This document shows positions 977 through 13,900 of a stretch of 19,684 nt of DNA, piece after piece (position 1 is the stretch's first letter; each line of letters starts with the position of its first letter). A program made the translations under genes and the position numbers. The stretch comes from an uncultured Eubacteriales bacterium (GTDB lineage Bacteria; Bacillota; Clostridia; Oscillospirales; Acutalibacteraceae), in the NCBI GenBank assembly GCA_900321905.1, contig ONXZ01000003.1:1-19684 (forward strand). The letters are read 5' to 3'. A model generated the notes under the pieces. The model had not been told where the DNA came from. It did no database searches and was given only the letters and a program-made list of their open reading frames with translations.

Positions 977-1780
977 ATGAGCGACAAAACCAAAAATTCG
1001 CAACAAGACGAACAGCGCAAAAAAGAACGCAGAATTATAATAGTTTTACTTATCATTTTATTTGTTATTGTTGGCTCTGCGTTCCTCGGTTATTATCTCT
1101 ATACGCAGTATGACGCAAGGCAAAACGATGAGTATGCGTCAAGAATTGCTGCCACAACGCAGAGCGTTGACGAACATATTGCAAAAAATCCGATTGATTT
1201 TGATTCAATCAGGTCGAGCAATCAGGATATATACGCCTGGGTCAAAGTACCCGGCACAAATGTTGATTACCCTGTAGTTCAGCACCCGAGCGACGATTAT
1301 TTTTATCTTAAGCATGAGGCGTATAACAAAACCTGGAGTTCAAGCGGCTCCGTGTATGCGGAACTCGGCAACACAAAGACGTTCAGGGACAGGGTGACGG
1401 TGCTTTACGGCCACAACGGATATGGCGACACAATGTTCACCACGCTGCATAATTTTGAGTCAACGGAGTTCTTTAACAAGCGCGACAAGTTTTATATCTA
1501 TATGCCCCAGCGCAAACTGACTTACAAAATTGTATCAGCGTTTAAATATGATGACAGACATTTGCTCAATTGTTTTGATTTTAACGACACAACAGTTTAT
1601 CGCGATTTTATCAAGATGATTCAGGCGCCTGACACAAATAATAAAAATGTCAGGGAAAATCTTGGCAGGGTGCTCACAACTAACGACCATATTGTGGTGC
1701 TGTCAACCTGCTTTACAAATCAAAGAAGTAACAGATATTTAGTATGCGGAGTATTGATTAAGGATGAAAAGACAAATTGA
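977..1780 (+). CDS. srtB: Class B sortase (transpeptidase)
   Basis: This 267-residue membrane-anchored cysteine transpeptidase would join sorting-signal proteins to the peptidoglycan cross-bridge. A cytoplasmic lysine/arginine-rich start is followed by one membrane helix (about residues 20-43) and the extracellular sortase fold. The catalytic triad is visible: His146 in LYGHN, Cys245 in VLSTC and Arg253 in SNRYLV. The YxWVxVPGTNVDYPV segment before the His and the long stretch between His and Cys are typical of class B rather than class A, C or D. A TTG at 956 could extend the frame by seven residues. ATG 977 is preferred, though its ribosome site is weak (AGAAAG, 962-967). Clostridioides difficile SrtB is known to use (S/P)PxTG signals, matching the SPKTG protein just upstream. 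The 3' end overlaps the next gene by 17 bases. Confidence 0.92.
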   Translation: MSDKTKNSQQDEQRKKERRIIIVLLIILFVIVGSAFLGYYLYTQYDARQNDEYASRIAATTQSVDEHIAKNPIDFDSIRSSNQDIYAWVKVPGTNVDYPVVQHPSDDYFYLKHEAYNKTWSSSGSVYAELGNTKTFRDRVTVLYGHNGYGDTMFTTLHNFESTEFFNKRDKFYIYMPQRKLTYKIVSAFKYDDRHLLNCFDFNDTTVYRDFIKMIQAPDTNNKNVRENLGRVLTTNDHIVVLSTCFTNQRSNRYLVCGVLIKDEKTN

Positions 1781-3116
1781 CCCCAATCTTTCAGCGCTTG
1801 AGAGTGATGATATTTTAAGCAGTATCGGCGCGGACAAGCCGTCTGAGCCCGAGGTTAAGCCTGAGCCGCAGCCAAAACCTGAGCCGCAGTTGGACGAGCC
1901 TTTTACCGAACTCAAAGAGGATATCAAGAGTTATCAGGAGGCGCGCGCCGAGGCTGAACGTGAACGCAGTGAGAGTAGTCACCATCATCACCATCACCAC
2001 CATCACCATCATCACTCGTCAGGCAAAAAACATTCAGGTTCACACCATCACTCTTCATCATCAAGCAACAAAAAGAGTAAAAAAGACAAGAAAAAATTGC
2101 CGACAGCGCTTAAAATTGCAATCATTATTTTGCTTGTACTTGCGCTTGCAATCGGCACGGTTTTCGGTACGTTTATGTTCCTTCGCTACAAGGGCAAAAA
2201 GGACATTATGCCTGTCACAACAGGCGATGTGAAGTATGAGGAAATAATTGAATACGGCGGACATAAGTATAAGTATAACGAAGACGTTGTTGCGCTTGCA
2301 TTTATCGGCGTTGACCAGCGTACGCTTGAAAGCAGCACAAACACAGACTTTGTGGGTTGCGCCGACGCAGATATCGTTATTGCGGTTGATACAAACACGG
2401 GCAAAACGAATGTTATCGCAATCCCGCGTGATACAATGGTTGATATTGACCGCTATAGCGCAGATACAGGACTGCTGATAAACAGTGAAACCTCGCAACT
2501 TTGCCTTGCGTACGCTTACGGCGACGGTGAAGAACTGAGTTGCCAGAACACAGTTGACGCTATGAGCAGAATCCTCAACAATGTCCCGATTCAAAAGTAC
2601 TTTGTGCTTGACCTTGACGGTATTGCGCCGCTCAATGACGCAATCGGCGGCGTAGAGATTTCAAACTCGCTTTACGATTTTCCTGACGAGGGTATCAAAG
2701 TGGGCGACTCGGTAATGCTCAAGGGCGATATGGCTGAAAAATATGTAAGGTCGCGTAATATGGACAACGTTGAAGCGTCGCTCAACCGTACAGACCGCCA
2801 GATTCAGTACGTCAGAGCATTTGCAACACAGGCGCTTCCTGCGGTTGTGCGCGATTTCTCAACAGTTTCAAAACTGTACAACACGTCAAAAAATTATTCA
2901 AAAACAAACCTGTCAATGTCAAACGCAACGTATATGGCTTCGCTGTTTTTGCAGAAGAATATACGCGATTTTGAAGGCACAACACTCAAGGGTAAGATGC
3001 AGGCATCCGCAGACCCTAACCCCGAATTTGCAGACGTTGTGCATGCTGAGTTTTATCCCGACAAAGACTGCGTAATGCAGGCGGTACTTAAAGCGTTCTA
3101 CACGCAAATAGATTAA
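1764..3116 (+). CDS. LytR-CpsA-Psr (LCP) family wall-polymer ligase with histidine-rich N-terminal tail
   Basis: This 450-residue type II membrane protein should transfer undecaprenyl-linked polymers such as teichoic acids or polysaccharides to peptidoglycan outside the cell. Residues 1-110 form a long cytoplasmic tail: a Pro/Glu repeat region (about 27-46), an acidic helix, twelve consecutive histidines (73-84), then Ser/His- and Lys-rich stretches. One membrane helix follows (about 114-140). The LCP domain runs from about 171 to 355, with the arginine motifs of the family: IPRD at 220-223 (Arg222) and the VRSRN...LNRTDRQ segment (328-346) that holds the pyrophosphate-binding arginines. The start overlaps the sortase end by 17 bases, so the two genes are probably co-transcribed and translationally coupled. 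A terminator follows immediately. Confidence 0.9.
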   Translation: MKRQIDPNLSALESDDILSSIGADKPSEPEVKPEPQPKPEPQLDEPFTELKEDIKSYQEARAEAERERSESSHHHHHHHHHHHHSSGKKHSGSHHHSSSSSNKKSKKDKKKLPTALKIAIIILLVLALAIGTVFGTFMFLRYKGKKDIMPVTTGDVKYEEIIEYGGHKYKYNEDVVALAFIGVDQRTLESSTNTDFVGCADADIVIAVDTNTGKTNVIAIPRDTMVDIDRYSADTGLLINSETSQLCLAYAYGDGEELSCQNTVDAMSRILNNVPIQKYFVLDLDGIAPLNDAIGGVEISNSLYDFPDEGIKVGDSVMLKGDMAEKYVRSRNMDNVEASLNRTDRQIQYVRAFATQALPAVVRDFSTVSKLYNTSKNYSKTNLSMSNATYMASLFLQKNIRDFEGTTLKGKMQASADPNPEFADVVHAEFYPDKDCVMQAVLKAFYTQID

Positions 3117-3149: not shown

Positions 3150-3558
3150 AATGCTTATTTGCTTTTCTCTTTTCGTTTTTCATCTTGATATGCCCAAACA
3201 GAATTCCGATTATTGCCGCAAGTGCAAAAAACAGGAACATCGGTATATCGGCAGCATCGTAATATGTCACTATTTCTTTAACCTTAAAGCCGCTGTTAAG
3301 TATAGGAAACGCGGCGGCACACAGCATATTCATTGCGCCAAAAAACAGCGCCGCAAGCCACTTTTTTTGCGAGTGCGATACATATCCTATCACCGCGCCT
3401 ACGCATATAGACGCTATTGGCAGCACAACATACATTGTCATAAACGCTATTCCGCCGTCGTCGTGCGGCGACATAAGTATTGCTAAAAAACATATTACCC
3501 ACACTGCAAGATATGCAATCAGCGCGGTTTTTTTAGATTTTTCAGTTAACTGTTTCAT
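3148..3558 (-). CDS. Four-helix membrane protein of unknown function
   Basis: This is a 136-residue hydrophobic protein that I do not recognise. Four likely membrane helices are visible: TALIAYLAVWVICFLAI, MYVVLPIASICVGAVIGYV, WLAALFFGAMNMLCAAA and IPMFLFFALAAIIGILFG. Charged ends (MKQLTEKSKK and KMKNEKRKANKH) suggest that both termini are cytoplasmic. The start at 3558 is chosen because ATGA overlaps the stop of the upstream GH3 gene (stop at 3555-3557), the classic mark of translational coupling. An ATG seven codons earlier (3579) also exists. Coupling to a cytoplasmic glycosidase hints at a role in sugar uptake or regulation, but nothing in the protein itself shows that. Confidence 0.7.
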   Translation of the reverse strand: MKQLTEKSKKTALIAYLAVWVICFLAILMSPHDDGGIAFMTMYVVLPIASICVGAVIGYVSHSQKKWLAALFFGAMNMLCAAAFPILNSGFKVKEIVTYYDAADIPMFLFFALAAIIGILFGHIKMKNEKRKANKH

Positions 3559-5969
3559 AATTTCAAATCCATTGCGCATTTCAGCACGTTCATTGCACTG
3601 CGCTGAATTTCGCCAAGAGTAATTCCAAACGGTTTGCCGAGCGATGACAGCAGTGTTTTGTCAGGCTTGCGGTTTGTAACTCTTGCGCCGCCCGGCATAA
3701 ATACGTCAATCTGCGCTCTTACGCGGTAAGCCTGGTCTTTGACCGCAGGGTTTTCAGGACTTTTTTCGCTCTGCATCCACCAGTCGGTCATAACGTTACC
3801 TTCGTAACCCCACTCGCCGCGCAGGATAGTTGTGCAAAGGTCGTAGTTGTAGTGACCGTACACGCCGTTAATGCGGTTGTAGGAAGTCATAATATTTTTC
3901 GGTTTCGCCTCTCTTACGCAGATTTCAAAACCTTTAAGGTAGATTTCACGCAGGGCGCGTTCGGACAGTCGGCTGTCGTTTTTAGTGCGGCGCATTTCCT
4001 GATTATTGCAGGCAAAATGTTTAGGACAGGCGGAAGCGCCCTGGCTCTGTATGCCGCGAACTGCAGCCGCTGCCATCTTACCCGTAATGTACGGGTCCTC
4101 GCTGTAATATTCAAAATTCCTGCCGCAAAGCGGATTGCGGTGTATGTTCATGCCGGGTGCCAGAAGTACGTCGGTGCCGCGCTCTTTCATCTCTTTTGCA
4201 AGTTCGGTGTGAATAGCCTCAACAAGTTCCGTATCAAAAGTGCATGCGAGCAGAGTGCCAATCGGAATGAGTGAGCAGTATGCAAAAAGACGAATACCTG
4301 ACGGACCGTCGGTTGTGATAACCGCAGGCACGCCTTTGTCGCGCAGTGACTCAAGCACGCCTGCAAACGCGCCCGCATTGCCTTTCGCACCGAGTTTGCT
4401 GTCCATTGTGTAGTCGCCGCGAGTGATGGCTTCAAGTTCAACAAGGTCAAGTTGAGCAACAAATTCTTCCATAGTGCATTTGCCGTTTTTAACGTCGATT
4501 AACTTGAGCCCTTTGTCGCCTGTCATTTCAATATCTTCAGGCAAATTGTTGTTTATGCGTGTAGCAAGGTCAAACTTCTGTTTAGCAACTGCTTTTTTGC
4601 GCAGTACGGTTTTGCCGTCAACAACTTCCGCGTGCAGCACTTCAAAATGCTGCTGAGGAGCAGCCGCCTGGCGCAGTTGCTCGTAAACTTCAGTTTCCTC
4701 CTGGTAATATGAGAACACTCTTTTTGCCTCACGCACATTTTCACCGAGGTAGAAGGAATATTCGCCCTCCTCGGCAACGTATGCGCCTGCGTGGTTTGTT
4801 GAGCCGCAGTCGTCATATGACGTGAGTTGATAGTCGCCAACCCACATTTTAACCTCCTCGCACTCACTCGGTGCGAGGTCTTTTGTTTTTGTGAAAGCAA
4901 CAAGTTCACGCGCAGGATTGCCGAGTTTACCGCACGGCTTTTCAGCATATAACTGAATAACCTGTCTGCCGCTTCGCTTGCCTGTATTAGTAACTTTTGC
5001 GGTGATTTCAAATCCGTCGTCAAAAGCCTCGGTATCTATGTATTCAATATCAAAATCGGTGTAACTGAGTCCGTAGCCAAAAGGATAAACAACGTTGCTT
5101 TTGTCAAAAGACTCAAAGTAGCGGTAGCCTACAAAAATATCTTCCTCATAGTTGTTTACGTTCCTGCCTGCAAAGTTTTCGCTTGACGGGTAGTCAAAAT
5201 AATTTTTAGCAACGGTGTCGGTGAGTCTGCCGCTCGGGTTAACCTTGCCGCAAAGGACGTCCGCAACGGCGTTGCCGCTCTCCATACCGCCTTGAAAAAC
5301 GTACATAACGGCGGAGAGTTTGTCGCCGTATTTTTCAACCCACGACATATCCATAATGCCGCCTGTGTTAAGAAGGACTATAACCTTGTCAAAGTTTTCG
5401 CATACAAGGTCAAGCATAGCGGTTTCGCTCTTGCTGAGCAGATAGCAGCCTTCTTCGTAAGCGGAATCTCTGTCCTCGCCTGCGGCTCTGCCAATAGTTA
5501 CAACTGCAGTGTCGCTTGCACCCTTGTTTTGTTGCAGGGTTATGATGTCAAGCGGCATTTCCTTCTGACTGTACGGCCACTGACCCCATACGCCGTGATT
5601 TGGCGGGCATTCCTTAACCCAGGAAGCGTAAACCTCTGCAAGTTTTTCATTGAGTTCAAGTTCCTCGCAGTTTCTTATTCCGTCAACAAGATTGATTTTG
5701 TCAGGGCAGTTAACGTCGCCGCCGGAGCCGTATCCAACGTAAAACCAGTCAATCTGTGTGCGTGAAAAAAGCGACACAACCGTGCCTTTTTCAAGCGGAA
5801 GCGTGCCGTCATTTTTTACAAGCACAATACCCTCTGCCGCAGCTTGTCTGCAAAGGCGTTTCATTTCATCGGTGATTTCGCCCGTTGCTGTGGCACCCGC
5901 GTTTTCAGCCTGTGATACGTCAGATATAACATCGCTGACTTTGCTTTTTATCTTGTCCATTAAACTCAT
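3555..5969 (-). CDS. Glycoside hydrolase family 3 beta-glycosidase with reversed domain order
   Basis: This 804-residue retaining exo-glycosidase probably removes terminal beta-linked glucose or a similar sugar from oligosaccharides. Usual GH3 enzymes run TIM barrel, then alpha/beta sandwich, then Fn3-like domain. Here the sandwich comes first (about 40-290), then the Fn3-like domain (about 300-430, with PFGYGLSYTDF and RELVAFTKTKDLAPSE), and the TIM barrel last (about 490-800). The nucleophile is Asp729 in VMTDWW. The likely acid/base is Glu165 in GRAAGEDRDS, comparable to the SGEG glutamate of Thermotoga GH3 enzymes. The substrate-binding KHF motif and the TDGPSGIR loop are present. Reversed order is known in Ruminococcus albus and Butyrivibrio beta-glucosidases. 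There is no signal peptide, so it acts on imported sugars. The start is set by AAGGTGGT (complement of 5973-5980). Confidence 0.92.
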   Translation of the reverse strand: MSLMDKIKSKVSDVISDVSQAENAGATATGEITDEMKRLCRQAAAEGIVLVKNDGTLPLEKGTVVSLFSRTQIDWFYVGYGSGGDVNCPDKINLVDGIRNCEELELNEKLAEVYASWVKECPPNHGVWGQWPYSQKEMPLDIITLQQNKGASDTAVVTIGRAAGEDRDSAYEEGCYLLSKSETAMLDLVCENFDKVIVLLNTGGIMDMSWVEKYGDKLSAVMYVFQGGMESGNAVADVLCGKVNPSGRLTDTVAKNYFDYPSSENFAGRNVNNYEEDIFVGYRYFESFDKSNVVYPFGYGLSYTDFDIEYIDTEAFDDGFEITAKVTNTGKRSGRQVIQLYAEKPCGKLGNPARELVAFTKTKDLAPSECEEVKMWVGDYQLTSYDDCGSTNHAGAYVAEEGEYSFYLGENVREAKRVFSYYQEETEVYEQLRQAAAPQQHFEVLHAEVVDGKTVLRKKAVAKQKFDLATRINNNLPEDIEMTGDKGLKLIDVKNGKCTMEEFVAQLDLVELEAITRGDYTMDSKLGAKGNAGAFAGVLESLRDKGVPAVITTDGPSGIRLFAYCSLIPIGTLLACTFDTELVEAIHTELAKEMKERGTDVLLAPGMNIHRNPLCGRNFEYYSEDPYITGKMAAAAVRGIQSQGASACPKHFACNNQEMRRTKNDSRLSERALREIYLKGFEICVREAKPKNIMTSYNRINGVYGHYNYDLCTTILRGEWGYEGNVMTDWWMQSEKSPENPAVKDQAYRVRAQIDVFMPGGARVTNRKPDKTLLSSLGKPFGITLGEIQRSAMNVLKCAMDLKL

Positions 5970-6118: not shown

Positions 6119-8233
6119 ATGGCTGTTATTAGCAGAATAAAAAACAGTAAGACAGAAGAAAAAAGTGTGTTAAAACAATACGGACTGTTTGCCGTCTACT
6201 TTGTTTTGGGTTTTGTGCTGAGTTTTGGCAAAGTAGTAGGCGACATCACGCCGTTTGGCGTATCAATCACAGCGGCGTCGCCAAAACGATATTTCCCTTT
6301 TGCGGCGGCAGGGGCGTTTATCGGCACGCTTGTCGGCGGAATAAACGCTCGCTCTGCGCGGTATCTTGCGGCAATAACTATTGCGCTGATAGGTGCGATT
6401 GCCGCGGCTTCGTTTGAACTCTATCACCGTCCCGCGTTTGTTATGACAATGGCGTTTCTGGCAGATTTTGCAAGCGGTGTTGTGCTGTGCCTCAACCTCG
6501 GCAGTGATTTTGGCGAATATGTGACTGTGGCGAGCGAAGCACTGCTTTGCAGTGGCGGTACATATTTTTTTTACAAAACGATTAATGCAAGTTATAAACG
6601 TTTGCGCTTCAGGGCGCTGCCCGTGTCTGACGTCGGCTGCGTTGTAATTTCGGCGGGGATTGTTGTTATGAATCTGTCGGCGTTGCGTATCGGCAGTGTA
6701 TGCCCTGCGCGTATAGCGGCAATGTTTATAGTTTTATGCGCTGTGCGGTATTCGGGCGACAGGCGTGCGCTGATACTTGCGCTGTCGCTCGGATTTTCAC
6801 TCTCAATTTCTAACAGCGGCGCTCTGTTTATTGTCGGCGCAATGGCGTTTTCGGCGCTTGTTGCATTACTGTTTCACGGCATTTCGTCATTTACAACAGG
6901 CGGTGCGTTTTTGTGTACGACAGGCTTTTTTGCCGCCGCTTCCGATAGCGAAATAGCGATGCCGTTTTTTATCGAGGCGCTTATTGCAACGGCTGTTTTT
7001 GTGCTTTTGCCGCAGGTCGTATGCGACAAACTTGAGCAGGCTTTTGCTTTTGGCGACAACGAGGCGCCTGACGGCTCACTGCGCCAGAACCTTGTGCTTA
7101 AACTGCGTTTCGCCTCCTCTGCAATGGCGGCAATCAGCGAGAGTGTAGACGCAGTGCGCGAGCGCATTAACGAACTTGCGCGCAAGAAAAATGACTACGA
7201 CCGCGAAATGCTGAGCGATGAGGAATATATCCGCCGTGAAATTGTGCTTGAAAAAACAAATCAAATCCGTATGGTTGCAAGCGACCAGTTTTTTTCAATC
7301 TCCGATATGCTCGGTGATTTGGCGTTTGAGTTTGACGAGGCGGAGATTTTTGACACTGCCTCCGCTGCGAAAATCCGCAGATTGCTCGGCGATTACAATA
7401 TTTTTCCGTCAAACGTTTCTGTTATTGAGGACAAGTTTTCGCGTGTTCGCGTCGAGGTGCTGACGGACGGTAACGCAGAGGCGTCAAACAACGGCAAACT
7501 CACAAATGAAGTCGGCAAAATACTCGGCAGATATTTTGATATGCCGCGAATAACTAATTTTAAAAACGAAACCATGATTGCCTATACCGAACGCCCCAAC
7601 TACCGCCTGACTGTCGGTTTTGCACAGCACAGCGCTCAGGGTAAACTCTGCGGCGATACGGTTAAGGTGATACAGGACGGCAGGGGGCATAGTATACTTA
7701 TTATCAGCGACGGTATGGGCAAAGGCTCTCGCGCTGCACTTGACGGAGCAATGGGTGCAGGACTGATTTCAAAACTCATCACAGCAGGTTTTGGTTTTGA
7801 TACGGCGCTCAAGGTTGTCAATTGCGCCCTGCTTGTCAAAAGCAACGACGAAAGCCTCGCAACGCTTGATATTATCAGTATTGACCTCTACACAGGCAAG
7901 TGCGAGATTTATAAGGCAGGAGCCCCTGCGAGTTATATTATAAAAAACAATAGCATTACAAAATGCGAACTCACCTCCATGCCTGCAGGTATTTTGCGCG
8001 GAATTGAGTTTGCAAAACGTACCGCTGTAATTGGTTGTGACGACAGTGTTGTACTGATGAGCGACGGAATAAGCGACCTCGGCAAAGAGTGGGTGGAGCA
8101 CACTCTGTCTGCGCTTAACGGTCTTGGCGTGCAGGAAACGGCTGACGCTGTTCTGACTCGCGCTCTTGCTGAATGTGAGGGCAAAAAGCATGATGATATG
8201 AGCATTATTTTTGCAAAACTTGAAAGGAATTAG
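6119..8233 (+). CDS. spoIIE: Stage II sporulation protein E, membrane PP2C-type phosphatase
   Basis: This 704-residue protein has the SpoIIE layout: about ten membrane helices in residues 18-300, a central cytoplasmic coiled region (about 320-480) and a C-terminal PP2C phosphatase domain (about 490-704). Metal-binding aspartates are in ISDGMGKGS (Asp531), LMSDGISD and HDDMSII (692-693). In sporulating bacteria SpoIIE assembles at the polar septum and dephosphorylates SpoIIAA, which frees sigma-F in the forespore. It is shorter than the 827 residues of B. subtilis SpoIIE, as is common in Clostridia. GAGG (6107-6110) lies eight bases before the ATG. It marks the organism as a spore former or a descendant of one. 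The next gene starts nine bases after the stop and is likely co-transcribed. Confidence 0.93.
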   Translation: MAVISRIKNSKTEEKSVLKQYGLFAVYFVLGFVLSFGKVVGDITPFGVSITAASPKRYFPFAAAGAFIGTLVGGINARSARYLAAITIALIGAIAAASFELYHRPAFVMTMAFLADFASGVVLCLNLGSDFGEYVTVASEALLCSGGTYFFYKTINASYKRLRFRALPVSDVGCVVISAGIVVMNLSALRIGSVCPARIAAMFIVLCAVRYSGDRRALILALSLGFSLSISNSGALFIVGAMAFSALVALLFHGISSFTTGGAFLCTTGFFAAASDSEIAMPFFIEALIATAVFVLLPQVVCDKLEQAFAFGDNEAPDGSLRQNLVLKLRFASSAMAAISESVDAVRERINELARKKNDYDREMLSDEEYIRREIVLEKTNQIRMVASDQFFSISDMLGDLAFEFDEAEIFDTASAAKIRRLLGDYNIFPSNVSVIEDKFSRVRVEVLTDGNAEASNNGKLTNEVGKILGRYFDMPRITNFKNETMIAYTERPNYRLTVGFAQHSAQGKLCGDTVKVIQDGRGHSILIISDGMGKGSRAALDGAMGAGLISKLITAGFGFDTALKVVNCALLVKSNDESLATLDIISIDLYTGKCEIYKAGAPASYIIKNNSITKCELTSMPAGILRGIEFAKRTAVIGCDDSVVLMSDGISDLGKEWVEHTLSALNGLGVQETADAVLTRALAECEGKKHDDMSIIFAKLERN

Positions 8234-8242
8234 GTGAAAAAT

Positions 8243-10009
8243 ATGAGTGGAATTTTTGCATTTGTCGGCGGAGAAAAGCCAAAGGAACTCCTGCTTAGCG
8301 GACTCGAAAATCTGCAGCATCGCGGCGGCGAGGTTTGCGGTATGGTAATTGCCGATAAGGACGGTTTTGCCACCGCAAAAACGGTAGGTACTGTGACAAG
8401 GCTTGCAGAGGATAATACAGGCTTTCTTCCTGACGGGTGCTGCGGAATTGCAAAAACGGATATTCAACTTCGTCTGCGCGGTGCTGCGTCTACTGTGCCT
8501 GCAGCAAACGAACTGTTTGCAGCCGCTTGCAGCGGATATATTGCTGATTTTGAGTCGCTTAAAAGATGGACGCGCTCACCGTTTGCAATTTCTACCGATG
8601 ACGACCTGCTGCTTGCGTGCCTTAGTATCTCAAACCGTGAAAACAGGGTTGAACTTGCAAACACAGTTGCTGCGGCGCTTACAGGCTCTCCGAGTTTTGT
8701 GTTTATGCCAAAAGGAGAAAACGAACTTTATGCACACGCAGGCAAAAATATGCTGTTTGCAGGGGTTGGCAAAATCGGTGCATTTTTGACTGACGAGTTG
8801 TCCGCTCTGCTGCTTTACTGTGACAAATACGCCGTTATTGAAAACGGCGAAACCGTGCGACTTCGTGCAGACAAAATCACTTTTTATGATGAAAAATGCC
8901 GCAAAATAAAAAAGGTATTCAATCCTGTTACCGGCAGAGTTTATGCTGACGGTCAGGCGTCGCTCGGCGATGAAATCCATTTTTGTGCGCGCGCAGCACG
9001 TGAAGTTTACTGCAATTTTGTAAAAAACGGTGCGCTGAATTTAGACGCGCTTAAACTCACCAAACGCGCAGTGGAGCGCATATCACGCATTGTTCTGGTG
9101 GGCGAAGGCAGTTCGTACAACGCGGCGCTTTTTGGCATGCGCTTGTTTGAAATGCTTAGCGATATTCCCTGCGCTGTTTACCGAAGCGGCGAGTTCATCT
9201 ATTCAAAATGCGTGCTTGATAAAAACACACTTGTTATCGCCGTTTCGCACCGCGGTGAAACGGCAGACACGCTATCCTGCGTGCGGCGCGCGGTATCTGC
9301 GCAAGCGCAGACTCTTGCTCTGACAAGCACAAAAACTTCTTCGCTATCTCTGATTTGCGAGCGTACTATGCTGACCGATAGTGATTACTACAACAGTTCT
9401 TCGCTTTGCTCGTTTATCTATAGCAGTATGTCGCTTGCTCTGCTTGCGCTATACATCGGTATGCGCGACTCTGTTGTGACGGATATATACCTTACTATGG
9501 CTCTGAAAATGGCTGAACTCCTGTCAGGCAAAATTGCCTCCGCCGTCAAAGATAACACCGCATATTCAGCAGCGGTCAACACCGTTTTGCAGTGCGAGCG
9601 CATTTATACCTGTGCAAATTCGGTAGATTATTCCGCCGCGCTTGAAACTGCCGACAAAATCCGTCGCGTGGCAAATAAGGACTGCACAGCCGTGCCAATA
9701 TCAGAAATCGTTACTTACCCTTCCGACCTTATTATGGGTGCGGCTGTGCTTGTTTTTGAAACCTCAAAAGTCAAAGGCGTTTTTTGCGAACTGCAACTCA
9801 GCCGCCTGCAGGCGCTCGGTGCAAAGATTATACTTTTTACTACGGAAAACCTTGAGGACGATATAAAGCATTATGACACAGTTATCAGCGTCAACGACAC
9901 ACTGCCGATATTTAACCCCATACCTTGCGCAGCGGCAGGTTACCGTCTTGCCGAACGATTGAAAAGAGCCTTAGAAGAAACTGAGGAAGAAAACCTTGCC
10001 GCATCATAA
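8243..10009 (+). CDS. GlmS-like protein with degenerate glutaminase and isomerase sites (probable pseudoenzyme)
   Basis: This 588-residue protein has the GlmS architecture: an N-terminal class II glutamine amidotransferase domain (1-225) and two SIS sugar-phosphate domains (about 240-575). The start aligns MSGIFAFVGG with MCGIVGY, so the catalytic Cys is replaced by Ser2 (codon AGT). The HTRWATHG glutamine-binding motif reads roughly KTDIQLRL (71-78), and the oxyanion HNG reads CSG (96-98). In the SIS part GEGSSYNA (287-294) and GETADTL (338-344) survive. However, the GTEIGVASTK motif is lost, KHGP reads TYPS, and the C-terminal PRNLAKSVTVE tail is absent. GlmS itself makes glucosamine-6-phosphate from fructose-6-phosphate and glutamine; this paralogue probably cannot. 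It may instead sense a sugar phosphate. AGGTG (8232-8236) supports ATG 8243, although a GTG at 8234 is also possible. No terminator separates it from spoIIE. Confidence 0.8.
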   Translation: MSGIFAFVGGEKPKELLLSGLENLQHRGGEVCGMVIADKDGFATAKTVGTVTRLAEDNTGFLPDGCCGIAKTDIQLRLRGAASTVPAANELFAAACSGYIADFESLKRWTRSPFAISTDDDLLLACLSISNRENRVELANTVAAALTGSPSFVFMPKGENELYAHAGKNMLFAGVGKIGAFLTDELSALLLYCDKYAVIENGETVRLRADKITFYDEKCRKIKKVFNPVTGRVYADGQASLGDEIHFCARAAREVYCNFVKNGALNLDALKLTKRAVERISRIVLVGEGSSYNAALFGMRLFEMLSDIPCAVYRSGEFIYSKCVLDKNTLVIAVSHRGETADTLSCVRRAVSAQAQTLALTSTKTSSLSLICERTMLTDSDYYNSSSLCSFIYSSMSLALLALYIGMRDSVVTDIYLTMALKMAELLSGKIASAVKDNTAYSAAVNTVLQCERIYTCANSVDYSAALETADKIRRVANKDCTAVPISEIVTYPSDLIMGAAVLVFETSKVKGVFCELQLSRLQALGAKIILFTTENLEDDIKHYDTVISVNDTLPIFNPIPCAAAGYRLAERLKRALEETEEENLAAS

Positions 10010-10014
10010 AACAA

Positions 10015-10043
10015 TAGACTTTTGCAACTGTGTATGATATAAT
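10015..10043 (+). promoter_or_regulatory. Extended -10 promoter for the GH27 gene
   Basis: A TAGACT -35-like box (10015-10020), a 17-bp spacer and TATAAT (10038-10043) preceded by TGA form an extended -10 promoter. It sits in the 63-base gap after the GlmS-like gene, 29 bases before the start codon. Confidence 0.65.
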
Positions 10044-10072: not shown

Positions 10073-11356
10073 ATGGAAAAATTTAAAACCTGGGCAACAA
10101 AACCGCCGCTCGGATGGAACAGTTGGGACTGCTTCGGTGCGGCTGTAACGGAACAGCAAATCCGCGAAAACGCTGACTATATGGCAAAGTATCTCAAACC
10201 GTACGGCTGGGAGTACGTTGTGTGCGATATTCAGTGGTATGAGCCAAAGGCGTACAGCAACGACTACAACAATTTTACGGAACTTGAAATGGACGAATAC
10301 GGCAGACTTATGCCTGCGGTCAACCGTTTTCCGAGTGCTGCAGACGGCAGAGGATTCACCACCCTTGCTGAGTATATTCATTCTCTCGGACTCAAGTTCG
10401 GAATTCACATTATGCGTGGCGTTCCGCGTCAGGCAGTGGCGCAAAACTGTCCGATTTACGGCAGCGACAGCACCTGCCGCGATATAGCGCACCATTTTTC
10501 CGTTTGCTCATGGAACACCGATATGTACGGCGTTAAAAACAGTGACGAGGCTCAGGAATATTATAACTCAATCATAAATATGTACGCTTCCTGGGGCGTT
10601 GATTTTATCAAGTGCGACGATATCTGCGTTACGGAATTCCGCCGCTGGGATAACCCGTACAGCGCTGATTATGAGATAGAGATGCTTCGCAAAGCAATTG
10701 ATAACTGCGGCAGGGAGATTGTGTTATCTCTCTCGCCCGGACCTGCTCTGCGCGATAAGGCTGACCACCTTTGCGCTAATGCCAATATGTGGCGGCTCAC
10801 AGGCGATTTCTGGGACGTGTGGGATAAACTGTACGATATGTTTGACAAGTGCAAACAGTGGGAGGGCGTAACCGATACAGGCAATTTCCCCGACTGCGAT
10901 ATGCTGCCGATTGGCAGGATTGCAAAAAACAGCACTTACTACGGCGCAAACAACCGTATGAGCCAGTTCACAAAGCCTGAACATTACACGCTTATGACTC
11001 TTTGGGGCATTTTCAGAAGTCCGCTGATGATTGGCGGCAACCTGCCTGAAAATGACGAATTCACTTTTTCGCTCCTCACAAACAGTGAGTATATGAAGAT
11101 GAACCAAAACTCAACTAACGCGCGCGAACTCTGCCGCGAGGGCGACAAGGTTATCTGGGTATCAGACGGCGACGGCTGCAAGTATGCGGCGCTGTTTAAC
11201 ACAGGCGATACCGAGCAGGAAGTTGCGCTAACATTTGACGAAAAAGGCGAATACTCTGTGCTTGACATATGGCAAAATGAGGAACTCGGCACAGTCAAAA
11301 ATACCCTCAAAGCGAGCGTCGCACCGCACGGCGCAAGGCTGTTCAAACTGGTTTGA
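10073..11356 (+). CDS. Glycoside hydrolase family 27 enzyme, probable alpha-galactosidase
   Basis: This 427-residue cytoplasmic enzyme belongs to the clan-D retaining glycosidases and probably removes terminal alpha-galactose from oligosaccharides. The N-terminal barrel opens with PPLGWNSWDCFG (11-22), the family signature. The nucleophile is expected at Asp182 in DFIKCDD, and the acid/base at Asp245 in MWRLTGDFWD, by comparison with the WRNFAD segment of human alpha-galactosidase A. A beta-sandwich makes up about the last 80 residues (VIWVSDGDGCKYAALFNTGD onward). Some GH27 members act on beta-L-arabinopyranosides or isomaltodextrans, so the substrate is not certain. There is no signal peptide. 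AGGAG (10061-10065) lies seven bases before the ATG. It is followed by an independent promoter for GH5, so it is probably its own transcription unit with some read-through. Confidence 0.88.
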   Translation: MEKFKTWATKPPLGWNSWDCFGAAVTEQQIRENADYMAKYLKPYGWEYVVCDIQWYEPKAYSNDYNNFTELEMDEYGRLMPAVNRFPSAADGRGFTTLAEYIHSLGLKFGIHIMRGVPRQAVAQNCPIYGSDSTCRDIAHHFSVCSWNTDMYGVKNSDEAQEYYNSIINMYASWGVDFIKCDDICVTEFRRWDNPYSADYEIEMLRKAIDNCGREIVLSLSPGPALRDKADHLCANANMWRLTGDFWDVWDKLYDMFDKCKQWEGVTDTGNFPDCDMLPIGRIAKNSTYYGANNRMSQFTKPEHYTLMTLWGIFRSPLMIGGNLPENDEFTFSLLTNSEYMKMNQNSTNARELCREGDKVIWVSDGDGCKYAALFNTGDTEQEVALTFDEKGEYSVLDIWQNEELGTVKNTLKASVAPHGARLFKLV

Positions 11357-11376
11357 TTAAATAAATAAAATATGTG

Positions 11377-11405
11377 TTGAATTAAAATAGCAGTTCGTAT
11401 ATAAT
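11377..11405 (+). promoter_or_regulatory. Sigma-A type promoter for the GH5-GH130 operon
   Basis: The -35 box TTGAAT (11377-11382), a 17-bp spacer and the perfect -10 TATAAT (11400-11405) predict a transcript start near 11412. The -10 box lies inside a long inverted repeat, so the promoter is probably regulated. Confidence 0.8.
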
Positions 11406-11426
11406 CAAGGTATACGAACTGCTATT
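11386..11426 (+). promoter_or_regulatory. Operator-like 16-bp perfect inverted repeat over the GH5 promoter
   Basis: AATAGCAGTTCGTATA (11386-11401) is the exact reverse complement of TATACGAACTGCTATT (11411-11426), with nine bases between them. The centre lies just after the -10 box, so a dimeric repressor bound here would block RNA polymerase. With transcription predicted to start near 11412, only the right arm would be in the GH5 mRNA, which argues for a DNA site rather than an RNA hairpin. A secondary role as terminator for the GH27 gene is possible, but no good T run follows. Confidence 0.7.
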
Positions 11427-11451
11427 ATTTGGCGTTTTTGGGAGAGAGTTT

Positions 11452-12924
11452 ATGGAAAAAATCAGAGCAAACAAACTTCGTTTTGTGGACTCAAAAGGCA
11501 GGACAAGGATTTTCAACGGTATGAATATCGACGATAAACTTGTTAACTGCGCGGAGTTTCGCTACAATCTTGACGAAGAGTTTTTTAAAAAGTACAAGGC
11601 TCGCGGCTTTGACATTATCCGCCTTGCGGTAACGTGGCAAAATCTTGAGCCGAAAATGGGCGAGTATAACGAGAGTTATCTGAAGTCGATTGACAGTATC
11701 TTTGCCCTTGCCGAAAAGTACGGCGTTTACATTCTGCTTGATATGCACCAGGATTTGTATTCGCAAAACGACGGCGAGTGCGTTGGCGACGGCGCGCCGT
11801 CCTGGGCTGCAATCACTGACGGCGCAAAGCCGAGAATGCCGATTTTTGTTTGGGCGGACGGCTACTTTATGGGCAAGTGGGTCAGAAATGAGTTTGATAA
11901 TTTCTGGAACAATACCGAAGTCGCAGGCAGAGGTTTGCAGGACAGATACTGCGATTTGTGGCAAATGCTCGCAAAGCGCTACGGCGAAAGTCCTGCACTA
12001 TTTGGCTTTGACCTTATGAACGAGCCGTTTCCCGGCTCATACAGCACCAAGATGTTTGCACGGCTTGTCGGCGGTGTTGCTAAAACGGTGCTGTTTAATA
12101 AAAAGGTCGACAGGGTAAAACTTATCAAATCTGCTGTCAAGCGCGACACACGCAGTATGCTCGACTGCATAGGTGGCGACGTTATCCGTGACGCGGTTTA
12201 CCGCATTGATAAGATTCAGCAGCAGTTTGACCAGGAAAAATACACGCCGTTTCTCAACAAAACGACTGCCGCTATCAGGGAGATTACACCCAACGGCATT
12301 GTGATGATGGAGCAGAGTTATATCTGCAACAGCGGCGTTAAGCAGTCCGCTTCGCCAATCAGTGTTAACGGCAAGCGCGAGGCAAATCAATGCTTCGGTC
12401 CGCACGCATACGATTTTTCTGTTGATACTCCGCTTTATCAGTATGCAAATTCAAGCAGAGTTAAGGCGTTTTTTGGCGAAATGCGCAAAACGCAATTACG
12501 CCTTGATGTGCCTGTAATTGTAGGCGAGTGGGGCGGTTGCAGTGACAACACGGATACTTCGTGGTTTGGTCACGCAAACGAACTTCTTGACTTTTTTGAC
12601 GAAATGCAGTGGGGTCAGATGTACTGGGATTACCATGGCGACGACCTTGACGCACCGCTTATGGATATGCTTTGCAGAACGCACCCGGTTGCGGTTGCCG
12701 GCAAAATCGAAAGTTACGGCATTGACAGAAAAAATAACATCTTTAACCTCAATTTCACCGCAGACGAAAAGGGTGAGAGCATTATCTACGTCCACAAGCC
12801 GTTTGAAGTTATTGAGGGCGCAAAGTGCAAGGTTATTGAAACGTACGACAGCGGCGCCAGCCTTATCAAAATCCCTGCAAAAAAGGGCGAGAATACAGTT
12901 AAAATCAAATTAATTTCTGATTAA
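11452..12924 (+). CDS. Glycoside hydrolase family 5 enzyme related to endoglycoceramidases
   Basis: This is a 490-residue retaining (beta/alpha)8-barrel glycosidase. The acid/base is Glu191 in FDLMNEPFPG, and the nucleophile is Glu359 in VIVGEWGG. LLDMHQDLYS (95-104) with VGDGAPSWA (111-119) is characteristic of the endoglycoceramidase branch of GH5, enzymes that split an intact glycan from the ceramide of glycosphingolipids. Family members also include beta-glycosidases acting on other aglycones, so the substrate remains open. The barrel ends near residue 410, followed by a small beta domain (INLNF-like strands to the C-terminus). Known endoglycoceramidases are secreted; this one has no signal peptide. 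GGAGAGAG lies directly before the ATG. The GH130 gene follows after 25 bases in the same operon. Confidence 0.82.
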   Translation: MEKIRANKLRFVDSKGRTRIFNGMNIDDKLVNCAEFRYNLDEEFFKKYKARGFDIIRLAVTWQNLEPKMGEYNESYLKSIDSIFALAEKYGVYILLDMHQDLYSQNDGECVGDGAPSWAAITDGAKPRMPIFVWADGYFMGKWVRNEFDNFWNNTEVAGRGLQDRYCDLWQMLAKRYGESPALFGFDLMNEPFPGSYSTKMFARLVGGVAKTVLFNKKVDRVKLIKSAVKRDTRSMLDCIGGDVIRDAVYRIDKIQQQFDQEKYTPFLNKTTAAIREITPNGIVMMEQSYICNSGVKQSASPISVNGKREANQCFGPHAYDFSVDTPLYQYANSSRVKAFFGEMRKTQLRLDVPVIVGEWGGCSDNTDTSWFGHANELLDFFDEMQWGQMYWDYHGDDLDAPLMDMLCRTHPVAVAGKIESYGIDRKNNIFNLNFTADEKGESIIYVHKPFEVIEGAKCKVIETYDSGASLIKIPAKKGENTVKIKLISD

Positions 12925-12949
12925 CTTCAGGAAGTTCAGGAGGTATATT

Positions 12950-13900
12950 ATGGCAAAAATTATTGGGCAGTCAATTCCGAATATCCCATGGCAGGACAAG
13001 CCTGAGGGTTATAGGTACCCTGTGTGGAGATATACGGAAAATCCTATTATTACAAGGGATGATTTGTTTTTTGCAAACAGTATTTTTAATTCCGCGGTTG
13101 TGCCTTACGGCGACGGCTTTGCAGGTGTTTTTCGCGTAGACGATATGACAAGATATCACACAATCGTTACAGGTTACAGCAAGGACGCTATTCACTGGGA
13201 ACTTGACGACAAGGTTATTTTCAACGGCTACGACCCGCGCCTTTGCGAGATTGAGGGCAAGTACTATCTGTCATGGGTTAACCTCACTCCAAACGGCACT
13301 ACAATCGGCATTGCCGCTACAGAGGACTTCAAGACATGGGAGCAGTTTGAGGATGCAACTTATCCCGTTGCACGAAACGGTGTTTTGTTCCCTAAAAAGA
13401 TTAACGGCGAGTATATGCTCCTTGTCCGTCCGTGCGACAGAGGCCACACACCGTACGGCGATATTTTTATCGAGCGCAGCAAGGACCTTGAATACTGGGG
13501 CAAGTACAGGTTTGTTATGAAGCCTGAGCAGTTTTGGGAAAAAACTAAAATCGGTGCAGGTCCTACTCCTATCGAAATTGATGAAGGCTGGCTTTTGTTC
13601 TACCACGGCGTGCTGACAAGTTGCAACGGCTTTACCTACAGTATGGGCGCTGCAATCCTTGACAAAGATGAGCCGTGGAAAGTATTGCACAGAGCGGACT
13701 CATTCCTCCTTGCACCTCACGAACTGTACGAAACAGTCGGCGACGTGCCTAACGTTGTGTTCCCATGCTCTGCTCTCGCAGACGCCGACAGCGGCAAAAT
13801 CGCGCTCTACTATGGCGCGGCAGACACAACAGTTGCACTTGCATTCACAACCGTTGACGAGGTTGTAAACTACATCAAAGAACACGATTTAATCAAATAA
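12950..13900 (+). CDS. Glycoside hydrolase family 130 protein, probable beta-mannoside phosphorylase
   Basis: This 316-residue single-domain five-bladed beta-propeller enzyme is cytoplasmic. GH130 members mostly phosphorolyse beta-1,4- or beta-1,2-linked mannosides, releasing mannose-1-phosphate; a few hydrolyse. Family features seen are YDPRL (94-98, candidate catalytic Asp95), GAGPTPIEIDEGWLLFYHG (202-220) and ALYYGAADT (285-293). The basic residues around Arg62, Arg68 and His70 (FRVDD, TRYH) and His219 fit the phosphate site of the phosphorylases, which makes phosphorolysis more likely than hydrolysis. AGGAGGT stands before the ATG. Sharing an operon with a GH5, and lying beside a GH27, suggests the last steps in using a mannose- and galactose-containing glycan. 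Confidence 0.85.
   Translation: MAKIIGQSIPNIPWQDKPEGYRYPVWRYTENPIITRDDLFFANSIFNSAVVPYGDGFAGVFRVDDMTRYHTIVTGYSKDAIHWELDDKVIFNGYDPRLCEIEGKYYLSWVNLTPNGTTIGIAATEDFKTWEQFEDATYPVARNGVLFPKKINGEYMLLVRPCDRGHTPYGDIFIERSKDLEYWGKYRFVMKPEQFWEKTKIGAGPTPIEIDEGWLLFYHGVLTSCNGFTYSMGAAILDKDEPWKVLHRADSFLLAPHELYETVGDVPNVVFPCSALADADSGKIALYYGAADTTVALAFTTVDEVVNYIKEHDLIK

Follow-up and report, generated by a model that had tools for sequence, protein, structure and literature searches.

Apparent in-place conversion of a spoIIE-linked glmS into a sporulation-associated non-enzyme within one genus of Acutalibacteraceae

Regulators derived from enzymes are an already known kind of protein; in the HisZ-type regulators, an enzyme paralogue lost its catalysis and was retained for regulation. 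Among SIS-domain proteins, GKRP (GCKR) regulates another protein by contact and is responsive to fructose phosphates, according to PMC4109836. GlmR (YvcK) of Bacillus subtilis, which is not a GlmS, ties the level of a cell-wall sugar to protein contact, as stated in PMC7525490. For GlmS itself, PMC9272926 names Cys1, Glu488, His504 and Lys603 as catalytic residues. In the open-access literature, with subscription journals outside the scope of the search, we found no description of a spoIIE-linked degenerate GlmS of the kind reported below.

The window analyzed here is the whole stretch of 19,684 nucleotides from contig ONXZ01000003.1 of an uncultured Eubacteriales bacterium. In it, spoIIE is followed by a GlmS homologue, with these features:

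6119 to 8233, plus strand: spoIIE, 704 aa (Pfam SpoIIE 1.8e-25, SpoIIE_N 7.1e-9; TIGR02865 235.9 bits)
8234 to 8242, plus strand: 9-nt junction between spoIIE and the GlmS homologue, read from the sequence
8243 to 10009, plus strand: degenerate GlmS homologue, 588 aa plus stop, based on GlmS alignment and the genus series
8243 to 8914, plus strand: glutaminase-like N-terminal domain (about residues 1-224), aligned with GlmS and with the 1xff glutaminase domain
9083 to 9430, plus strand: first SIS domain (residues 281-396; Pfam PF01380, 2e-22)

The score of the spoIIE product against TIGR02865 is below the model cut-off of 490.8. An AAAGGA-like ribosome-binding stretch is located inside the 3' end of spoIIE, and the ORF list allows an upstream extension of the 588-aa frame only to an in-frame GTG at 8234. 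The original prediction placed the start nine nucleotides after spoIIE with no terminator between the genes; the gap is as described, and a sequence scan of the junction found no terminator-like site on the plus strand. Residues 2-570 of the protein align with the solved E. coli-type GlmS structure 4amv (E 9.6e-25, or 1.2e-57 when a 28-member family profile is used), and the GlmS layout of a glutaminase domain followed by two SIS domains is present over the full length. SIS is the only Pfam domain above cut-off, and the protein scores 171.8 bits against the GlmS equivalog model TIGR01135, short of the cut-off of 418.05.

A protein of GlmS shape in which both catalytic centers are lost had been proposed for this gene, and a comparison residue by residue agrees: none of Cys1, Glu488, His504 and Lys603 is kept. 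The N-terminal nucleophile Cys1 is replaced by Ser, HTRWATHG by KTDIQLRL and HNG by CSG, and the E(I/V)xVASTK stretch of the SIS part is missing; the predicted motif losses, including that of the PRNLAKSVTVE tail, are thus borne out. The 28-member profile alignment, which ends before Lys603, restores none of the catalytic residues that it covers. The positions concerned in the isomerase part are as follows:

9101 to 9124, plus strand: GEGSSYNA, retained, the counterpart of the GlmS loop at about residues 299-306
9245 to 9274, plus strand: SHRGETADTL, the counterpart of SQSGETADTL, with His at the Gln348 position and Arg at the Ser349 position
9665 to 9667, plus strand: Arg475, at the position of isomerase residue Glu488
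9713 to 9715, plus strand: Thr491, at the position of isomerase residue His504
9989 to 10006, plus strand: C-terminal ENLAAS where GlmS has the PRNLAKSVTVE tail, so that the Lys603 tail is missing

By its sequence, the window protein is a GlmS descendant that has lost its catalytic residues. An active GlmS enzyme is rejected on the four catalytic residues and on the scores. We also rejected PurF (amidophosphoribosyltransferase; 29.4 bits, cut-off 350) and a MurR/RpiR regulator, for which Pfam gives no HTH domain and the best model reaches 22.2 bits against 378.

The gene pair is not peculiar to the window. The genus set consists of 80 genomes, many of them fragmented and incomplete; the region 3' of spoIIE is readable in 75, and a usable spoIIE end is lacking in G003, G019, G072, G073 and G090. 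A GlmS-type gene lies directly behind spoIIE at 67 of the 75 readable loci, intact at 17 and degenerate at 50, seven loci have nothing GlmS-like there, and at the remaining one (G087) the contig breaks off. The pairing recurs often enough that a chance neighbor is rejected, and conservation of the pair within the genus is supported. The 17 intact genes comprise 14 of type C and three of type O, a divergent type at the spoIIE locus that is called E where the same type occurs elsewhere in a genome. At the loci concerned (L226, L227 and L228, in G032, G086 and G061), the E-type glmS replaces C while the flanking genes are the same. Degenerate copies fall into full-length class P (23 loci, including the window and the broken copy of G020) and copies without the glutaminase domain (27 loci: five of kind S1 and 22 of kind S2). 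Only two candidates for a degenerate copy away from spoIIE came to light, in G003 and G087, and both were rejected as such, their position at contig ends fitting split copies of the same locus.

Catalytic motifs are kept in the 33 aligned intact copies (14 C, 16 E, 3 O), the frame of G061 stopping before the last ones, and Cys1, HTRW, HNG, KHG and PRNLAK are kept in none of the 49 aligned degenerate copies. No Cys occupies the Cys1 position in the 20 scored full-length degenerate copies, and among the 48 degenerate copies that reach the isomerase positions none has His504, while the Glu488 position is still Glu in six.

Several features of the degenerate copies are recorded here as side observations. 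In G020 (L158), matches to residues 1-282 and 468-582 of the class P protein are adjacent in different frames. S2 copies (for example, L150:2341-3390 and L121:3159-4229) have a strongly basic N terminus in place of the glutaminase domain, followed by a KEIFTQ stretch that resembles the start of the GlmS isomerase domain; the median net charge of the first 14 residues is +5 in S2, +1 in P, -3 in S1 and 0 in C. Of 24 complete P and S1 copies, 22 have small residues (A, G, S, T or V) at their last two positions, as do only two of 21 S2 copies and none of the 14 intact C copies. Such an end resembles a proteolysis tag and could be a proteolysis signal in P and S1, which we offer only as a lead. 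A fixed pattern, DxxPxFNP, was not used as a shared motif, being patchy (15 of 22 full-length, 11 of 27 SIS-only and 0 of 17 intact copies).

A second glmS had been named as a check, and the genome of the window indeed has a separate intact copy at C71:2143-3945 (694 bits). Forty-six of the 50 genomes with a degenerate copy also contain a canonical glmS, whole or partial, at another site (P 21/23, S1 5/5, S2 20/22), and a second glmS is seen in none of the 17 genomes whose spoIIE-linked copy is intact; given the relatedness of the genomes, a small number of events explains this pattern of co-occurrence. The four degenerate-copy genomes that show no canonical glmS are G006 (73% complete), G014 (88%), G080 (92%) and G081 (97%), the last two in more than 400 contigs each. 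In addition, G084 (L107), which is 98% complete in three contigs, has spoIIE and SpoIVA and yet no glmS above the cut-off. Outside the genus, 41 of 58 genomes sampled from the order have glmS above the cut-off; in these, glmS and spoIIE are never side by side (contig ends being left out of the adjacency check), and the three genomes that have both on one contig keep them at least 65 kb apart. The neighbors of E-type glmS are common to G000, G068 and G034 and different in G013, G099 and G029 (L159, L231-L235), indicating that the genome position is not stable. Control by a glmS ribozyme was rejected, as Rfam at gathering thresholds gave no match in the 20 sources searched, which included the window, the glmS contig of G000 and several locus classes.

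Comparison with profiles of C, E/O and outgroup GlmS gives C as the best-scoring profile in 48 of 49 degenerate copies; in the exception, G085, the outgroup GlmS profile is ahead by 0.9 bit. In a tree of the isomerase domain (70 rows), a branch with an SH-aLRT of 100 separates the 46 degenerate rows from all others, in a quick analysis with long branches and some rows dropped. The GlmS tree groups C with some sequences from the order and the family (SH-aLRT 86, branch 1.16) and places E/O elsewhere (branch 1.51), with the three O copies nested inside E. On these comparisons, the window-type copies clearly descend from the spoIIE-linked type C. On a SpoIIE tree of 74 rows, the locus classes need seven changes, against a mean of 40.5 after shuffling. 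Within that tree, S1 is nested within P and S2 belongs to another clade, so that the glutaminase domain was probably lost twice in the genus.

Degenerate copies evolve faster than SpoIIE and are nonetheless constrained by purifying selection. Pairwise dN/dS values by the Nei-Gojobori method, which are rough because many dS values exceed 1, were 0.09-0.21 in 12 degenerate pairs (six P pairs 0.11-0.21, six S pairs 0.09-0.14; one further pair of each was saturated), 0.03-0.09 in five pairs of intact C copies and 0.02-0.11 for SpoIIE over the same 19 pairs. With its homologous fold, lost catalytic residues and purifying selection, the window protein would count as a pseudoenzyme, inactivity being read from the residues only. 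The distance to spoIIE also differs between the classes. The median gap from the spoIIE stop is 5 nt in P (22 copies, with two outliers, one due to a wrongly chosen start), -1 nt in S1 (5) and 3 nt in S2 (22), as opposed to 29 nt in intact C (14) and 76 nt in O (3). These short or overlapping gaps suggest translational coupling to spoIIE in the degenerate classes.

The original prediction further held that the protein binds a hexose or hexosamine phosphate through the retained GEGSSYNA and GETADTL motifs. Both motifs are present in the window protein and lost in most relatives outside its subclade, and the conservation of the site follows the same division. We expressed conservation as a mean entropy percentile (0, most conserved) over positions invariant in intact glmS. 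In class P, the values are 0.48 for the glutaminase site, 0.49 (average) for the phosphate site and 0.67 for the isomerase residues, and conservation of the phosphate site is poor in the two groups without the glutaminase domain (0.65 in S1, 0.65 in S2). In the subclade of the window (13 sequences out of the 28 in alignment A2), by contrast, the phosphate site is at 0.25; Glu288, Gly289, Ser291, Arg337, Gly338 and the equivalents of Glu481 and Lys485 are identical in all 13 sequences, with variation at the Glu488 and His504 positions. For the lineage of the window, where sensing is plausible, a pocket that may bind a ligand and performs no chemistry is a reasonable proposal; it does not extend to the family as a whole.

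The predicted sporulation setting fits the genus, which keeps sporulation genes: SpoIVA was found in 66 of the 80 genomes (47 of the 51 good ones), including that of the window. The gene itself is missing at seven loci and is therefore dispensable in places. Six of these genomes (G018, G028, G082, G084, G094 and G095), in which spoIIE is readable and has no GlmS-type gene behind it, retain SpoIVA, and a search of them with a single SIS-only query gave no relocated copy; the gene is thus unnecessary in some genomes that have sporulation genes. In the seventh, G075, spoIIE is interrupted and SpoIVA has no match.

Glycan-degrading enzymes frame the locus in the window, with a GH3 gene (3555-5969) on one side of spoIIE and GH27-like, GH5 and GH130 genes (10073-13900) on the other; behind the GlmS homologue, the order is an alpha-galactosidase gene, then GH5 and GH130. 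Further upstream, a LytR-CpsA-Psr family protein (1764-3116), whose gene overlaps the end of a sortase gene, has 12 consecutive histidines and another His/Ser-rich stretch close to its N terminus. Reporting of precursor supply to the sugar genes that follow had been suggested as an alternative; a link to these genes is not supported here, and the case for control of the downstream glycosidases is weak. A promoter-like site with a TG extension intervenes at 10015-10043, before the alpha-galactosidase gene, itself a weak candidate given that the region holds nine such sites and shuffled sequences 5.2. Moreover, an alpha-galactosidase gene follows only nine of 22 class P copies, some of them at contig ends, and also the contig-end fragment of G003.

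How did this gene arise, and what could its product do? Descent, loss of catalytic residues, selection and linkage to spoIIE all emerge from the comparisons above, which suggest that an intact spoIIE-linked glmS was converted at its own locus into a non-enzyme associated with sporulation. In an ancestor of the genus, glmS would have come to adjoin spoIIE; in one lineage, with another glmS (E) present elsewhere, the spoIIE-linked copy would have lost catalysis, and in the other lineage, an E-type gene would have displaced the linked copy in three species. We favor a non-catalytic GlmS descendant that serves as a SpoIIE-coupled binding protein, scaffold or sensor, a proposal in which we place about as much trust as doubt. 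The protein would be translated together with SpoIIE during sporulation and would act by binding rather than catalysis; its likeliest form would be a SIS dimer serving as a scaffold in contact with SpoIIE or with the machinery of the polar septum. Control of SpoIIE by capture and proteolysis is described for B. subtilis in PMC4714977. In the lineage of the window alone, the conserved SIS1 pocket may still bind hexose or hexosamine 6-phosphate, and the contact could then report cell-wall precursor supply when SpoIIE acts. We tentatively consider a more specific version, possible but doubtful, in which the spoIIE-linked GlmS already had a non-catalytic job in asymmetric division, the other glmS freed it from its chemistry, and it now couples the cell-wall precursor state to the activation of sigma-F by SpoIIE, with chemistry lost before the glutaminase domain and the sugar pocket were lost in two lineages. 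Conversely, the linkage to spoIIE could be an inherited position rather than a function, the genomes not being independent.

It seems unlikely that the dead copy instead regulates canonical GlmS, with mixed complexes lowering or gating glucosamine-6-phosphate synthesis at the onset of sporulation. Intact glmS accompanies most degenerate copies, and GlmS is a dimer that a partner can control, as illustrated by its stimulation by B. subtilis GlmR (PMC7525490); the partner here, however, would be an E-type enzyme of separate origin and about 20% identity to the window protein, and four degenerate-copy genomes show no canonical glmS at all. We disfavor as improbable the idea that the arrival of a second glmS freed the copy from catalysis and that it is merely decaying on its way out. 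Evolution faster than that of SpoIIE, domain loss in two groups, the break in G020 and the absence of the gene from seven of 75 loci would all be expected from decay; but the dN/dS values are low in all 12 pairs, those of the 50 degenerate copies that were read have an unbroken gene, G020 excepted, over divergence down to about 25% identity, and the distance to spoIIE shrank. More improbable still, in our view, is a glutaminase-like domain remade through Ser2 into another N-terminal-nucleophile enzyme. Ser can serve as an Ntn nucleophile, and 28 of 28 family members share Ser2 and Arg77, with Gly98 in 26 and Asp119 in 20. Against this, the Ser2 position is Asn, Gly or Thr in four of 20 scored full-length genus copies, the positions of Arg73, Trp74 and Thr76 vary freely, and the whole domain is missing from 27 copies.

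In conclusion, an intact relative and several stages of degeneration share one locus within one genus, so that the steps leading from an essential enzyme to a non-enzyme can be followed, and a gene locked to spoIIE provides a way to test whether the supply of cell-wall sugar is tied to spore formation. Compared with GlmS (TIGR01135), the window protein has the same domain order, a full-length alignment and descent from the spoIIE-linked intact glmS of the genus, and differs in that neither domain has its catalytic residues and the C-terminal tail is missing. HisZ-type regulators belong to a different enzyme and pathway. GlmR binds UDP-GlcNAc, has no known link to spoIIE and is not known to share the fold of the GlmS homologue. 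GKRP offers the likeness of a SIS-domain regulator acting by contact; it is an animal protein with a different partner and no glutaminase domain, and for the window protein both ligand and partner are putative.
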